Below are positions 47,401 to 56,527 of a stretch of 64,000 nucleotides of DNA, one piece after another. The stretch's first letter is position 1. The number at the start of each line of letters is the position of its first letter. The notes below the pieces were generated by a model, which saw nothing but the letters and a program-made list of their open reading frames with translations, was not told where the DNA came from and searched no databases. This stretch comes from Myxosarcina sp. GA_180221_E-2-1-MAG-40_15. GTDB lineage: Bacteria > Cyanobacteriota > Cyanobacteriia > Cyanobacteriales > Xenococcaceae. A program made the translations under genes and the position numbers. The DNA lies in contig JAIMKV010000001.1 in the NCBI GenBank assembly GCA_020692205.1, positions 90,743 to 154,742 on the forward strand, read 5' to 3'.

Positions 47401-48915
47401 TTAAACTGCTTTCGGTTCTAAATCTTTGACAGGAGGGCCTTGAATTACCTTACCGTCACAGGTAAAACGCCCACCGTGACAGGGACAATCCCAGCTTTTT
47501 TCGGCACTGTTCCATTGAACAATACAGGCTAAATGAGGACAGGTAGCATTAACCGCAGTTACTCTGCCTGCTTCATCTTTATAAACCCCAACTTTCTCAC
47601 CCTTGAAGGTAATTATTTTACCTTCTCCTGGTTTAACATCATCGGCAGACCAGTTTTGAATGCCTTTGAGCCTGTCTCCTACCCAGTGCATTCCCACATC
47701 TAAATTGTTTTTAATTGATTCTTGAGTAATAAAAGGAGTTGCCCGCAGAGAGTCGTATAGTTCTGCCCAGGGGTTTTCTTTGCCTAACACTAAATCAGAT
47801 AATAGCATTCCCGCCATTGTTCCTTTACTCATGCCCCAAAGGCTAAAGCCCGTTGCCACATAAATGCGATCATTAGCAGGAGTCAATTTACCAATGTATG
47901 GGAGTCGATCAAAAGACTTATAATCTTGACTAGACCAACGATAGTCAATCTGGTCAATGCCAAAATGAGAATGTGCATAGCGTTCTAATTCTGCGTAAGA
48001 CTCTTCTGTATTGGTTTGGTCAGCTACTTTATGACCACCGCCACCAATTAATAGCAGTAAATTACCATCATCTGTGGGGGTTGTACGAATGGAGTGATAG
48101 TTTTTGCCAACACCAATATACATTCCTGCTGGGGCTTTTGTGGGATTAATTTTGGCCCCGATAATGTAAGAACGTTGGGGATATGTCTTGGCAAAGAATA
48201 ACCCTTGATCCATAATTGGCAGCTGGGTAGTTAACAGTACATCACTAGCTTGTAAAGTAGTATCGTTAGCAAATACAGTACAGAGTGTACCTTCTTCGAC
48301 AGTTTGGACACGGCTATCTTGAAACACATAGCTACCGTCACCAGGGATAGTATTAACTAAGTGCAAAAGATATTTGCGGACATGAAACTCAGCTTGGTTG
48401 GTGAATTTTAATGCCCCGGCAATCTCAAACGGAAGAGTAGTTTCGGTAACTAATTCGGCTGGCAAACCAAGCTTTATTGCTGCATCGTACTCTTGTTGAA
48501 TCTGATTAAGATTGTCTTGATTCTCGGCAAAGCTATAGGTATCATTACGTTGAAAATCGCAGTCTATTCCTTCTTGTTCTACAGTAGCTGCGACAAACTC
48601 TACCCCAGCCTGATTTGACTCGCCATAGAGTCTGGCTTGATCTTCGCCAAGTTTGTCGATTAAGTCTGCATAGATTAACTGATGTAAAGAAGTAACTTTA
48701 GCGGTAGTATGGCCACTGGCACTAGCTGCTATCTGTTGTGCTTCGATTAAAGCGACAGTCTTGCCTGCTTTTTTGAGTAGATAGGCTGCGGTAATACCCG
48801 TGATTCCTGCACCAATTATTGCTACATCTACAGTCACGTTTTCCATTTGAGGAAAAGAGGTTTTAACAGTAGAATCTAGCCAAAAGGAAATCGGTTTCCC
48901 TGGCAAAGTTTTCAT
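47401..48915 (-). CDS. FAD-dependent oxidoreductase fused to a Rieske domain
   Basis: 504 residues. N-terminal DAO-type FAD domain: VDVAIIGAGITGITAAYLLK is the nucleotide motif, and IGKLTPANDRIYVATGFSLW resembles the family C-terminal FAD block. The C-terminal 100 residues are a Rieske [2Fe-2S] domain: CPHLACIVQW and CPCHGGRF provide the two-cysteine, two-histidine cluster ligands. Known relatives in bacteria are described as DadA/FAD-Rieske oxidoreductases. Substrate unknown; redox or glycine-type amine oxidation is possible. Located in the run of stress-type genes. Confidence 0.87.
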   Translation of the reverse strand: MKTLPGKPISFWLDSTVKTSFPQMENVTVDVAIIGAGITGITAAYLLKKAGKTVALIEAQQIAASASGHTTAKVTSLHQLIYADLIDKLGEDQARLYGESNQAGVEFVAATVEQEGIDCDFQRNDTYSFAENQDNLNQIQQEYDAAIKLGLPAELVTETTLPFEIAGALKFTNQAEFHVRKYLLHLVNTIPGDGSYVFQDSRVQTVEEGTLCTVFANDTTLQASDVLLTTQLPIMDQGLFFAKTYPQRSYIIGAKINPTKAPAGMYIGVGKNYHSIRTTPTDDGNLLLLIGGGGHKVADQTNTEESYAELERYAHSHFGIDQIDYRWSSQDYKSFDRLPYIGKLTPANDRIYVATGFSLWGMSKGTMAGMLLSDLVLGKENPWAELYDSLRATPFITQESIKNNLDVGMHWVGDRLKGIQNWSADDVKPGEGKIITFKGEKVGVYKDEAGRVTAVNATCPHLACIVQWNSAEKSWDCPCHGGRFTCDGKVIQGPPVKDLEPKAV

Positions 48916-50816: not shown

Positions 50817-52904
50817 TTACTCGTCCCAGGTAAAGTAAAAAGTTGCTCCTTGTCCTAGTTTGGACTCAACTCGGATCGAGTTACCTCGTTCCTCTAAAAT
50901 CTTTTTGACGATTGATAAGCCAATGCCTGTACTTTCAAAGGTATCCCTGGGTTGTAAAGTCTGAAAAATTTGAAAAATTCGTTGATGATGTATGGGGTCA
51001 ATGCCAGGCCCATCATCGCTTACAGCAAACTCGTAACAATTATCTTGCTCTTGAACTGAAATCTCAATTTTGCCTTGATCTTGGTGATGATATTTGATGG
51101 CGTTGCCGATAAGGTTAGTAAACACCTGTTGCAGAGAGATAATATCGGTTTTGAGCGTGGGCATATTAGGGGCGATCGCAATTTCGATCCCCGCAGGAGG
51201 GGACAGGAAATCGATTACTTTTGTAAGCAAGTCTTTAACCTGAACTGTTGCCGACGAGCGATCGCTTCTGCCAACCCGAGAATAGTCTAATAAGCCTTGA
51301 ATTAAGCCTTCCATCCGCTCAACCCGCGACTGCATCAACTGAAGATGACGCTGGTTTTCCTCGGGGATGATGCCTTCTAAATCTTCTCCTAACCAAGTAG
51401 CTAGATTGGCGATCGCTCTCAACGGGGCTTTGAGATCGTGAGAGGTAACGTAGGCAAAACGATCTAATTCCTGGTTACGTTTTTTAAGCAGAGATGCGGT
51501 TTTAATCAGTTCTTGATTGACCCACTTTAGTTCATCAGCTCTTTCTCTCAGCGACTTTTCTGACTCGATTTGCTCGCTGAGATCTCGCATCACCGTAGAT
51601 ATATACTCCACATCACCTTTGGCGGATTTATGGGCAATAATCAGTTGAGAAACTGGTATTTCCTTGCCATCTCGCGTCAGCAAGGCACTTATTCCCAGCC
51701 AAGTTCCTTGGGCAGTGGCGGTAGGAATTCCTTCATTCTGGACGACCCTTGATGCCCATGCAGGATGGTAGTCATTTACCGCTAGATTGGTTGTGTCGTT
51801 ATCGGCGCTAACTTCGACAATCTCCTCCATGCGGGGATTGTGCCAAATTACCTTTCCTGCCACATCAGCTAGTCCGATATAGTCCTCTGAGGCTTCTAAG
51901 ACTTTAACCAGACGTGCTAACTCTATCTCCAGTTTGTTTCTCTTTTCCAACTCGTGCTGCAAATTAGTAATTAATTCTGCTTGTTGAATTGCCAGCGATA
52001 GCTGTACTGCCAATTTATCTAACAAATCAACTTCATCGGTTTTCCACTGGCGAAAGCGATCGCATTGGTGCGCAATCAGTAATCCCCACGGAAAAGAAGC
52101 ATTGGCTGAGGTGCAGGCAAGTAAAATCGGTACGACAATCTGAGCTTTGACTTGAAATTTCTCTAGTAGCTGAAGGTGACAATTAGTAAACCCAGCTTGA
52201 TAGATATTATTGATTGTCAAAGTTTTTCCGAGTTCATCTGGGCTTGCAGCTCCATTATGAAAGCAAGTATCGCTGATCTTGGTGTTTAATGACTGTTTTT
52301 GACCCAATTTAACCGACTCGGCGACAATATCACCACTCATGTCTGGGGCAAAGCGATAAATCACCACGCGATCGCATTCGAGTAATAGTCTTACTTCCTT
52401 AACGGCGGTATCGAGAATTTCTGATAAATTGAGTGACTGGCGAATTCTCAAGGCAGTTTCGGCAATTAACTGTTGCTGTTGCTGATTTTGAGTAAATAGT
52501 TTTCTTAGGTGTTGCTGCTGAAAAACATTAGCGATCGCATTAATTAATATATCCGAGGTTAAGTTTACTTTGACTAGATAATCTTTGACTCCGCTTTTCA
52601 TTGCCTTGACCGCCACAGCTTCACTTCCGTGACCTGTTAACATGATAATCGGCGGAATTCTGCTTCTTTGAGACTGTAGTTCATCAATAAATTCCAGACC
52701 ATTGCAGTCAGGCAGTAAATAATCTAGCAAGATTAAATCTGGTAAAGATTTTTCTAGTTTTTCTAAACCTTCTGACCCAGATTCTACTGCGGTTATTTGG
52801 TAATCAAATTGTGTTTGCTGGTTTAAGCAACGACGATAAACCTCTTGGTCTTCTTCTGAATCCTCAATGATCAAAATATTAATCGGGTATTGATTGATAA
52901 CCAT
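50817..52904 (-). CDS. Hybrid histidine kinase with a DXCF-type cyanobacteriochrome GAF domain
   Basis: About 695 residues from the ATG at 52904 (TTG at 52925 is an alternative). Order: receiver domain (about 8-125; phospho-acceptor in LILLDYLLPDCNG), GAF domain (about 150-310), PAS (about 330-440), HisKA (DRFAYVTSHDLKAPLRAI) and HATPase (NLIGNAIKYHH, SDDGPGI, TGIGLSIVKK). The GAF holds the canonical bilin cysteine-histidine C242-H243 (TNCHLQLLEKFQVKAQIVVP) and a second cysteine C214 in SDTCF, the DXCF motif; the 28-residue spacing equals that in TePixJ. A light-regulated kinase is therefore likely. No output regulator is fused; a separate receiver gene is 5 kb away. Confidence 0.9.
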   Translation of the reverse strand: MVINQYPINILIIEDSEEDQEVYRRCLNQQTQFDYQITAVESGSEGLEKLEKSLPDLILLDYLLPDCNGLEFIDELQSQRSRIPPIIMLTGHGSEAVAVKAMKSGVKDYLVKVNLTSDILINAIANVFQQQHLRKLFTQNQQQQQLIAETALRIRQSLNLSEILDTAVKEVRLLLECDRVVIYRFAPDMSGDIVAESVKLGQKQSLNTKISDTCFHNGAASPDELGKTLTINNIYQAGFTNCHLQLLEKFQVKAQIVVPILLACTSANASFPWGLLIAHQCDRFRQWKTDEVDLLDKLAVQLSLAIQQAELITNLQHELEKRNKLEIELARLVKVLEASEDYIGLADVAGKVIWHNPRMEEIVEVSADNDTTNLAVNDYHPAWASRVVQNEGIPTATAQGTWLGISALLTRDGKEIPVSQLIIAHKSAKGDVEYISTVMRDLSEQIESEKSLRERADELKWVNQELIKTASLLKKRNQELDRFAYVTSHDLKAPLRAIANLATWLGEDLEGIIPEENQRHLQLMQSRVERMEGLIQGLLDYSRVGRSDRSSATVQVKDLLTKVIDFLSPPAGIEIAIAPNMPTLKTDIISLQQVFTNLIGNAIKYHHQDQGKIEISVQEQDNCYEFAVSDDGPGIDPIHHQRIFQIFQTLQPRDTFESTGIGLSIVKKILEERGNSIRVESKLGQGATFYFTWDE

Positions 52905-53216: not shown

Positions 53217-54677
53217 CTACCTAACGGCGCTTTGATACACTTTTTCATTAGCCTTAATCGATTTAAAAAAGTCTACGACTGGATGAGGATAATGCACGCC
53301 AATTCTCACTCCATAACGCTTTTGCTCGTCTTGAGTTAGTTTCCACGGTTCTCGAACTTGATCTCCAGGAAGCGAGGCCAATTCTGGTAGCCAGTGTTTA
53401 ACATACTCTCCTTGAGGATCGTAATCTTTAGTTTGCTTGGCAATATTAAAATAACGGAAGCCTCGCGCATCGTTACCTACCCCGGCGGTGTAATTCCAGT
53501 TACCCCAATTGCTGCATACATCGTAATCAAGCAACAGCGACTCAAACCATTCTGCACCCATTTGCCAGTTGATGCCCAGGTTTTTAGTCAGAAAGCTAGC
53601 TACGTTTTGCCTACCCCGATTTGACATAAAGCCTGTGGCGGCAATTTCGCGCATATTGGCATCAATCAAAGGGTAGCCCGTTTTGCCTTCTCGCCAAAGA
53701 TCGAAGCGTTGCCAATCTTCTTGCCAAGGAATTTCTATACCCTGCATCCCCTCAAGTTTAAATACGCGATCGCCGTGTTTGGCGACAATAAAACGGAAAA
53801 AATCGCGCCAGATTAGTTCAAAAATTAACCAGTAAGTAGAATCATTTTTAACCCTTTCTGCCTCGTACTCAATTACCTGATCGTTAATATAACGTGGTGA
53901 AATACATCCCATAGCCAACCAAGCCGAAAACTTAGAGGAATAGTTTGCCCCCAGCATGCCATTACGGGTTTGTTTATAATCCCTGAGACAGTCTTGTTGC
54001 CAGAAATAGTTTTGTAGTCGTCTAATGGCTTCAGTTTCACCACCTTTAAATTTCAAGACTCCTCGCTGCTCAAATTCGGGAGTAGATAAACCAAAATCAG
54101 CTAAGGTGGGAATTGTTCCTGGCTCGATTTCAGGTAGTGGAGGCAACTGCTGCGGGGCAGCGATCGCGGCGGAAATTGCTGATTTTTGCTCAACCTGCTT
54201 GCGGAAATTGGTATATAGTTCTGGTGTTTGAGCAATCTTAAAAGGTAAATCTTCAGGGAAATATAGAGTTGCTTGCCAATAGGTATTAACCTGAATATTT
54301 TGCGCCGACAGAGCGTTTTTAAGCTTTTGTTCAACTCGGGTTTCTTCGGAAGTAACTTCTTTGCTGTAGCAAACTCGGTCAACCTTGAGCTGTTCGGCAA
54401 TCGCAGATATGATCTTTTCAGGTAAACCGCGACGCACCACTAAATTACTCCCTAATTTCTGTAGTGATGAGCGTAAATCGGCGACGCTTTCGAGCAAAAA
54501 CTGTGCGCGATAATTACCTGTTTTAGGAAAGCCAAAAGAAGTCTTGTCAAAAGTGCGATCATCAAAACAATAAACAGGAATAATTTCTGCTGCTTGCTGC
54601 ACCGCCTCATTTAATGCCAGATGATCGTGTATTCTTAAGTCGTTGCGATACCAAATTAAAATCCGCTGTTTTGCCAT
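53217..54677 (-). CDS. Cryptochrome DASH / photolyase-family flavoprotein
   Basis: 486 residues. N-terminal alpha/beta antenna domain starting RILIWYRNDLRIHDHLALNE, then an FAD-binding helical domain with GMLGANYSSKFSAWLAMGCI and WREGKTGYPLIDANMREIAA. The YFNIAKQTKDYDPQGEYVKH signature fits the CRY-DASH subgroup rather than CPD photolyase class I. Such proteins repair cyclobutane dimers in single-stranded DNA and may act in blue-light signalling. The gene lies 312 bp before the cyanobacteriochrome kinase in the same direction. AGCTTTT repeats precede its start. Confidence 0.93.
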   Translation of the reverse strand: MAKQRILIWYRNDLRIHDHLALNEAVQQAAEIIPVYCFDDRTFDKTSFGFPKTGNYRAQFLLESVADLRSSLQKLGSNLVVRRGLPEKIISAIAEQLKVDRVCYSKEVTSEETRVEQKLKNALSAQNIQVNTYWQATLYFPEDLPFKIAQTPELYTNFRKQVEQKSAISAAIAAPQQLPPLPEIEPGTIPTLADFGLSTPEFEQRGVLKFKGGETEAIRRLQNYFWQQDCLRDYKQTRNGMLGANYSSKFSAWLAMGCISPRYINDQVIEYEAERVKNDSTYWLIFELIWRDFFRFIVAKHGDRVFKLEGMQGIEIPWQEDWQRFDLWREGKTGYPLIDANMREIAATGFMSNRGRQNVASFLTKNLGINWQMGAEWFESLLLDYDVCSNWGNWNYTAGVGNDARGFRYFNIAKQTKDYDPQGEYVKHWLPELASLPGDQVREPWKLTQDEQKRYGVRIGVHYPHPVVDFFKSIKANEKVYQSAVR

Positions 54678-55786: not shown

Positions 55787-56527
55787 ATGATGATCAAAAT
55801 TTTGCTTGCAGACGATCAATGCCTAATCTTAGAAGGCATCAAGACAATTTTACAACACGAACCCGAAATAGAGATCGTGGGGACAGCTCAAGATGGACAA
55901 AGCGCGATCGCTCAGGTGAAAAAATTACGACCGGACATTGTGTTGCTCGATATTGAAATGCCTAAAATGAACGGCATTACCGCCACTAAGCACATCTGTA
56001 AATATATGCCAGGTACTAGGGTAATTGTGCTGACAAGTCACAAAAACCAAACTTATCTTGCTCAAGCATTACAGGCTGGCGCATCAGGCTATTTATTCAA
56101 AGACAGTCTGATTGAAGATCTCAAACAGGCAATTCACTCTCTGGGTACGGATTATTCTGGTATCGAAACCAAGTTATTGACTCAAACCCTGAATAAAATT
56201 CAGCCAGCTAAAATTATCAGATATCAGAAAAAAGTGACCTATGTTCAAAAATATCGGCAAAATATTTACATTCCTACTCCCAAACACCAAAGTAAGCTGA
56301 GTTCATCGCTCAACAGCTCAAACACTATTCCTGGTACTGGTATGACCAAAGCCAGTTTGGCTCCAATATTTGAAGCCTCGACTGACGAAAGGCTGACAGA
56401 TTGGACGACACAACCTAAGTTAGATACAGATACTTCAGCCAAACTGCAGCTAAAAAATTATGGGAAAAGAATTGCTTGGCTACTAATCGCGATCGCCAGC
56501 CTCCTGCTATCGATAATCATTTTTTAA
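55787..56527 (+). CDS. NarL-type receiver protein with C-terminal transmembrane helix
   Basis: 246 residues. The receiver (1-120) has the acidic pair D9-D10, phospho-acceptor D55 in IVLLDIEMPKMNG, T83 and K105 (YLFKDS), a functional set. After it, instead of the LuxR-type HTH usual in this family, comes a 90-residue polar linker (about 130-225) and a terminal hydrophobic helix, RIAWLLIAIASLLLSIIIF, ending the protein. It would be a membrane-tethered receiver with no DNA-binding domain. It could be a truncated relative of receiver-transporter-adaptor fusions. 29 bp after the DUF938 gene. Confidence 0.87.
   Translation: MMIKILLADDQCLILEGIKTILQHEPEIEIVGTAQDGQSAIAQVKKLRPDIVLLDIEMPKMNGITATKHICKYMPGTRVIVLTSHKNQTYLAQALQAGASGYLFKDSLIEDLKQAIHSLGTDYSGIETKLLTQTLNKIQPAKIIRYQKKVTYVQKYRQNIYIPTPKHQSKLSSSLNSSNTIPGTGMTKASLAPIFEASTDERLTDWTTQPKLDTDTSAKLQLKNYGKRIAWLLIAIASLLLSIIIF

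Follow-up and report, generated by a model that had tools for sequence, protein, structure and literature searches.

A predicted DXCF-type, PAS-containing variant of the PPHK receiver-GAF kinase design in Myxosarcina sp.

Among solved systems, the one closest to the kinase analysed here is the histidine kinase PPHK. Its receiver is said to be an input, and the abstract of the original paper reportedly described an upstream photoreceptor paired with PPHK. The titles of its PDB entries (6OAP, 6OAQ and 6OB8) name a dual sensor histidine kinase and refer to green-absorbing (Pg), BeF3-bound and green-illuminated states. In the available parts of two papers, PPHK is assigned to Leptolyngbya sp. JSC-1 (PMC11480761, PMC8092228), with the Pg state placed at 562 nm (PMC11480761), and the title of the original report, as given in a reference list, contains the words “molecular logic OR” (PMC8092228). 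The second point of reference is TePixJ, the GAF domain of which carries the cysteines numbered Cys494 and C522 in the consulted part of PMC6955287.

The gene compared with these systems lies in a stretch of 64,000 nucleotides, designated here the window, from the genome of Myxosarcina sp. GA_180221_E-2-1-MAG-40_15. An earlier note on this DNA had described it as a receiver-GAF-PAS-HisKA-HATPase kinase with a DXCF-type cyanobacteriochrome (CBCR) GAF domain, and its coordinates, residues and domain order are borne out by the open reading frame and by Pfam, and for the PAS domain by a predicted model (Table 1).

Table 1. Features of the kinase gene (positions in the window; residues numbered along the protein)
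Feature	Position	Strand	Basis
Histidine kinase gene, receiver-GAF-PAS-HisKA-HATPase, 695 aa	50817..52904	-	ORF and Pfam
Receiver domain, residues 10-114; E14, D15, D61, T90 and K112 present	52563..52877	-	Pfam and alignment
Asp61, predicted phosphoacceptor (LLDYLLPD)	52722..52724	-	Sequence
Long helix, receiver to GAF, residues 117-156	52437..52556	-	Predicted model
Bilin-type GAF domain, residues 159-306	51987..52430	-	Pfam, PDB matches, tree
Cys214, second (DXCF) cysteine	52263..52265	-	Sequence and alignment
Asp223; Tyr in the other 16 aligned family proteins	52236..52238	-	Alignment
Cys242, canonical bilin-binding cysteine (CH)	52179..52181	-	Sequence and alignment
Long helix, GAF to PAS, residues 289-337	51894..52040	-	Predicted model
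PAS domain, residues ~340-441, below Pfam cut-off	51582..51887	-	Weak Pfam and model
HisKA domain, residues 480-544, His489	51273..51467	-	Pfam
HATPase_c domain, residues 587-694; N and G box residues present	50823..51146	-	Pfam

Organization of the kinase gene and its surroundings

The reading frame starts with ATG and has an in-frame TTG 21 bases upstream. Four of its domains (Response_reg, GAF, HisKA and HATPase_c) score above the Pfam cut-off, and the kinase motif residues H489, N601, G632, G634 and G662 are present, the kinase residues being found in 17/17 aligned family proteins. For the PAS domain, Pfam gave a PAS_4 match below the cut-off (E 0.0014), while residues 342-441 of the full-length AlphaFold2 model show an order of strands and helices compatible with a PAS fold. 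Since modelling of this region from the single sequence was of no use (pLDDT 42.5), the PAS assignment leans on the full-length model and the weak Pfam scores. That model (mean pLDDT 76.7) contains a third long helix at residues 443-508 besides the two listed in Table 1; with a pTM of 0.40, its domain packing means little.

Relatives were sought in 27 genomes of the family (the own genome included), of which 18 gave a match at E 1e-80. A contig scan with the query protein as single sequence returned no relative, and a scan with the alignment A1 did find relatives, the best-matching named records belonging mainly to Pleurocapsales, Xenococcaceae and Hyellaceae. The 17 aligned family proteins comprise nine with the receiver-GAF-PAS-kinase order (the query and L022-L029) and eight devoid of PAS (L030-L037), the two kinds being intermixed in the kinase tree. 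The protein of genome G022 (L038) is longer and different, and that of G002 (L042), found with a weaker E-value, is a GAF-kinase without a receiver.

In the part of the neighbourhood that was searched, no gene beside the kinase names an output target. Directly upstream, both in the window (53217-54677, minus strand) and in the nearest relative (L143), lies a gene for a DASH-type cryptochrome (TIGR02765; score 626 bits, cut-off 317). It was considered as a partner and set aside: the photolyase-family gene near the orthologs L155 and L156 is only about 31% identical, and the best model for the L155 gene is the 8-HDF type, just under cut-off, so that nothing is concluded from this neighbour. In 10 of 20 stretches a neighbour of the receiver-GAF kinase is an EcsC-like gene (about 338 aa; L155:6891-7907), often accompanied by a protein of 113-124 aa without a Pfam match. 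This candidate was likewise rejected and no link to the kinase is claimed, because EcsC-like genes occur in 24 of the 27 family genomes and the copy of the own genome lies on another contig, C15. Two further genes of the window may be mentioned. Pfam gave no DNA-binding domain for a response regulator (55787-56527, plus strand), which has a relative at the same place in L143 and a C-terminus that by eye looks membrane-spanning; an oxidoreductase-like protein (47401-48915, minus strand) carries an apparent C-terminal Rieske motif, also recognized by eye.

The GAF domain, its pigment pocket and a proposed mechanism

The GAF domain contains D212-T213-C214-F215, within SDTCF, corresponding to the D-X-C-F second-cysteine motif, and C242-H243, corresponding to the canonical site. 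The claim that both bilin cysteines are present at the TePixJ spacing holds: they lie 28 residues apart, as do the same cysteines in PDB 3VV4 with no gap between them, and both fall in the DXCF and CH columns when the query is aligned with this TePixJ chain. Moreover, C214 is kept in 17/17 and C242 in 16/17 of the aligned family proteins with a receiver (query included), which argues against a chance match. Both cysteines occur in at least 62 of the 83 other distinct receiver-GAF proteins having an aligned GAF row (an 84th, without such a row, was left out), a lower bound because the rows of L048 and L049 are cut short and their canonical cysteine is visible in the alignment. Three receiver-GAF proteins (L022, L088 and L093) keep DTCF, with the canonical cysteine replaced by Tyr. 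In the own genome, 20 loci yielded 21 distinct GAF domains after overlapping fragments had been merged by hand, a count of these loci and not a genome census, and 12 of them (query included) combine D-X-C with the canonical cysteine. DXCF cysteine pairs are therefore meaningful, yet common here. Contig C73 of the own genome (L011, L053) carries a kinase gene and, at a distance of about 3 kb, one for a bilin reductase, perhaps a chromatic acclimation locus; in the tree, the GAF of this kinase is paired with PDB 8K9O (99/93).

The 26 PDB matches to the query GAF (E 1e-5), with CBCRs first, are taken to be bilin GAFs, in part by name. In a tree rooted on eight phytochrome GAFs, which were entered as stretches longer than the profile match, 35 CBCR-type rows stand opposite the root with full support (100/100); the query is among them, and the earlier assignment to the CBCR clade thus withstood the phylogeny. 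Within the CBCRs it falls outside the TePixJ group (12 rows, 99/95) and inside a group of 13 rows (94/98) that consists for the most part of receiver-GAF proteins from related cyanobacteria. The WXDXXL motif of the extended red/green (XRG) CBCRs, as given in the available part of PMC11284453, is absent, Ile210 of the query being aligned with the Trp of AnPixJg2. These results support the prediction that the query GAF is a CBCR domain of the DXCF type.

Our preferred reading, to which we give a probability of roughly 0.65, is that the gene encodes a histidine kinase with two inputs, built like PPHK. The receiver and a DXCF GAF that binds bilin, connected by long helices, would jointly set the activity of HisKA/HATPase, with PAS between. 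To judge from the accessible portion of the DXCF literature, phycocyanobilin would be attached at C242 and could be converted to phycoviolobilin (PMC11284453). C214 would form a second bond, reversible and light-labile, so that the dark state would be violet/blue and the photoproduct of longer wavelength. The own genome gave one match to heme oxygenase and four to ferredoxin-dependent bilin reductases, which means that bilin synthesis is available in principle. The second input, by extension from PPHK, would be phosphorylation of the receiver by another kinase. It has also been considered that the receiver takes phosphate from its own HisKA, light driving an internal relay. The receiver and kinase residues of the query are intact, as this would demand, but Pfam at E 0.001 gave the query no separate phosphotransfer domain, BeF3- is bound in a crystal structure of PPHK, and the protein of G007 retains its kinase residues without having Asp61, all of which makes an internal relay highly improbable.

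As regards the pigment, the GAF might bind phycocyanobilin without conversion to phycoviolobilin and have a photocycle other than blue/green. Its place outside the TePixJ group and the Thr, rather than Pro, at the X of DXCF are compatible with this, as is the statement, in the part of PMC11284453 at hand, that several pocket residues govern conversion. Against it stand the second cysteine of the query and its Ile at the site of the red/green Trp, and the same portion of that paper has typical DXCF members binding phycoviolobilin (PMC11284453), so that absence of conversion seems quite improbable.

A feature not remarked in the earlier note is residue 223, at which the query alone of the 17 aligned family proteins has Asp. 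The position is occupied in 76 other distinct receiver-GAF proteins, of which 72 have Tyr, three Phe and one Asn. The preceding residue is Pro in the query and Arg, Lys, His or Gln in the 16 aligned relatives. In the alignment with PDB sequences, residue 223 shares a column with Tyr302 of AnPixJg2, without gaps up to the canonical cysteine, and Tyr302 appears in the available text of PMC7727823 as one of the bilin-surrounding residues assigned to the quantum region in an NMR calculation. The replacement of Tyr by Asp may weaken or retune bilin binding.

Could the GAF have ceased to be a photoreceptor in the query lineage, leaving the kinase to the receiver and/or PAS and the cysteine pair as a leftover? 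The rarity of Asp223, the proximity of the aligned Tyr302 to bilin (PMC7727823, as far as available) and the loss of Cys242 in the nearest relative, G012, speak for it. On the other hand, D212, C214, F215, C242 and H243 are all kept, the genes for bilin synthesis are in the own genome, and the GAF looks constrained: between the query and G012, dN is 0.087 and dS 0.63 for the GAF (dN/dS ~0.14), against 0.062 and 0.40 for the receiver (dN/dS ~0.16), so that neither domain seems released from selection. A lost photoreceptor is for these reasons considered unlikely, although Asp223 and the loss of Cys242 in G012 may mean that bilin function is decaying or altered in this lineage.

Phytochrome neighbours and residue changes in related genomes

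Of the 17 family genomes that have an aligned ortholog, 13 bear a phytochrome. In six of these 13 (G001, G004, G005, G011, G025 and G026), a phytochrome gene and one for a response regulator of 151-163 aa are found at most 4 kb from the kinase. Pfam, run on the G004 pair, identified PAS_2, GAF, PHY, HisKA and HATPase in the phytochrome and Response_reg in the regulator, and the genes of the other five genomes cluster with these by BLAST. In the remaining seven of the 13, no phytochrome was seen near the kinase, either on contigs shorter than 7 kb (G010, G017, G019) or in the surrounding 12-19 kb (G003, G006, G008, G018). In G027 and G041, which belong to other families, a PHY match and a receiver-GAF match are about 2 kb apart, and in G002 a PHY match adjoins another receiver-GAF gene. 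The kinase that would phosphorylate the receiver in the relatives is probably the phytochrome encoded nearby.

At least one PHY match is present in 23 of the 27 family genomes (in G024 only a partial one, E 9.2e-13), and no PHY domain was found in G000 (the window's genome, listed as 99.99% complete), G007, G009 and G012. At E 1e-25, these four genomes gave no match to the G004 regulator, and 6/6 comparison genomes gave at least one, that in G003 being only 38% at 2.0e-26. With neither a PHY domain nor a match to the linked regulator, the query strain has no obvious donor for its receiver, which would either take phosphate from another donor or have lost its role.

When 17 positions were checked in 17 proteins, changes were found in those of the four PHY-less genomes (Tyr223 to Asp in the query, Cys242 to Tyr in G012, Asp61 to Gly in G007 and Asp15 to Asn in G009), the other 13 proteins having none. 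There are counter-examples among genomes with a phytochrome, namely G022, with Ala for Asp61, G002, without a receiver, and, outside the family, G049, without both cysteines; G018, also phytochrome-bearing, departs at four otherwise invariant GAF columns, including Y183S and G191C. Taking G022 as a counter-example, and with a residue list drawn up after looking, Fisher tests gave 3/4 against 1/14 (p 0.019) or, with G002, 3/4 against 2/15 (p 0.037) when residue 223 was excluded, and 4/4 against 2/15 (p 0.004) when it was included. On the kinase tree, which is not a species tree, PHY absence requires three changes, and well-supported branches compel two of these; with only two to three independent pairs, the independent-pairs test, in which G022 was scored as unchanged although its Asp61 is Ala, cannot reach significance. 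The clustering of changes in the four PHY-less genomes is thus post hoc and small, and is to be taken as a lead.

One way to read this lead, tentative and on balance doubtful, is that phytochrome and blue/green CBCR kinase form a two-colour relay and that the inputs of the kinase decay once the phytochrome module is lost. The phytochrome, with its small regulator, would phosphorylate the receiver of the DXCF kinase; it would apparently have been lost two or three times, the window's lineage included, after which receiver residues would decay in some genomes and bilin-pocket residues in others. The orthologs would then constitute a natural series, from those with both inputs intact and a phytochrome nearby to those of PHY-less genomes with one input altered. 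Such a series, if real, would allow testing of how a kinase integrates two inputs and of what becomes of it after loss of the donor. The orthologs also offer a solved dual-sensor design in DXCF form, which might serve to control a kinase by light.

Comparison with PPHK, TePixJ and other receiver-GAF proteins

The earlier note had considered an N-terminal receiver a less common arrangement. This does not agree with what is seen in receiver-GAF proteins of other cyanobacteria (L063-L119), as receiver and GAF fell within one match at 67 of the 80 loci kept, in a scan that contained the receiver in its query and hence favours receiver-GAF loci. Most of these proteins have DTCF and CH, like the query, and several belong to open frames longer than 1900 aa; they differ in that many continue into further domains, and their identity to the query is mostly 36-50% over the matched stretch. 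In titles and abstract openings of the open-licence literature, no pointer to a DXCF receiver-GAF-PAS kinase was found.

TePixJ (GAF structures PDB 3VV4, 4GLQ and 6PRU) shares with the query the place of the DXCF and CH cysteines as well as their distance. It differs in its chemotaxis-type output, as stated in the consulted part of PMC6955287, in occupying a separate branch of the GAF tree, and in having Tyr where the query has Asp223. The earlier note named blue/green or violet/green photocycling as typical of DXCF members; for the query, such photocycling is a prediction. The last two differences weaken the transfer of TePixJ spectra to the query, and Asp223 makes that transfer unsafe.

The best solved match of the query receiver and GAF is PDB 6OAP, which covers residues 10-314 in one alignment (E 2.5e-71), and the first six matches of a fold search are six chains of 6OAP, 6OAQ and 6OB8 (41-42% identity, 311-314 columns). 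In PPHK, as in the query, a receiver is followed by a CBCR GAF within a histidine kinase. The DTCF of the query corresponds to DQYF in PPHK, the colours of which are for this reason not transferable; in the query, moreover, the second cysteine is present and the GAF is followed by a PAS domain. The earlier note had suggested a two-way light/phosphorelay node. Of this, the idea of two inputs is plausible in view of the PPHK precedent, while for the relay there is no obvious receiver phosphate donor in the strain; and such a node is a known design, PPHK being a dual phosphorylation/light sensor kinase. The query is a DXCF, PAS-containing variant of this solved receiver and GAF design.
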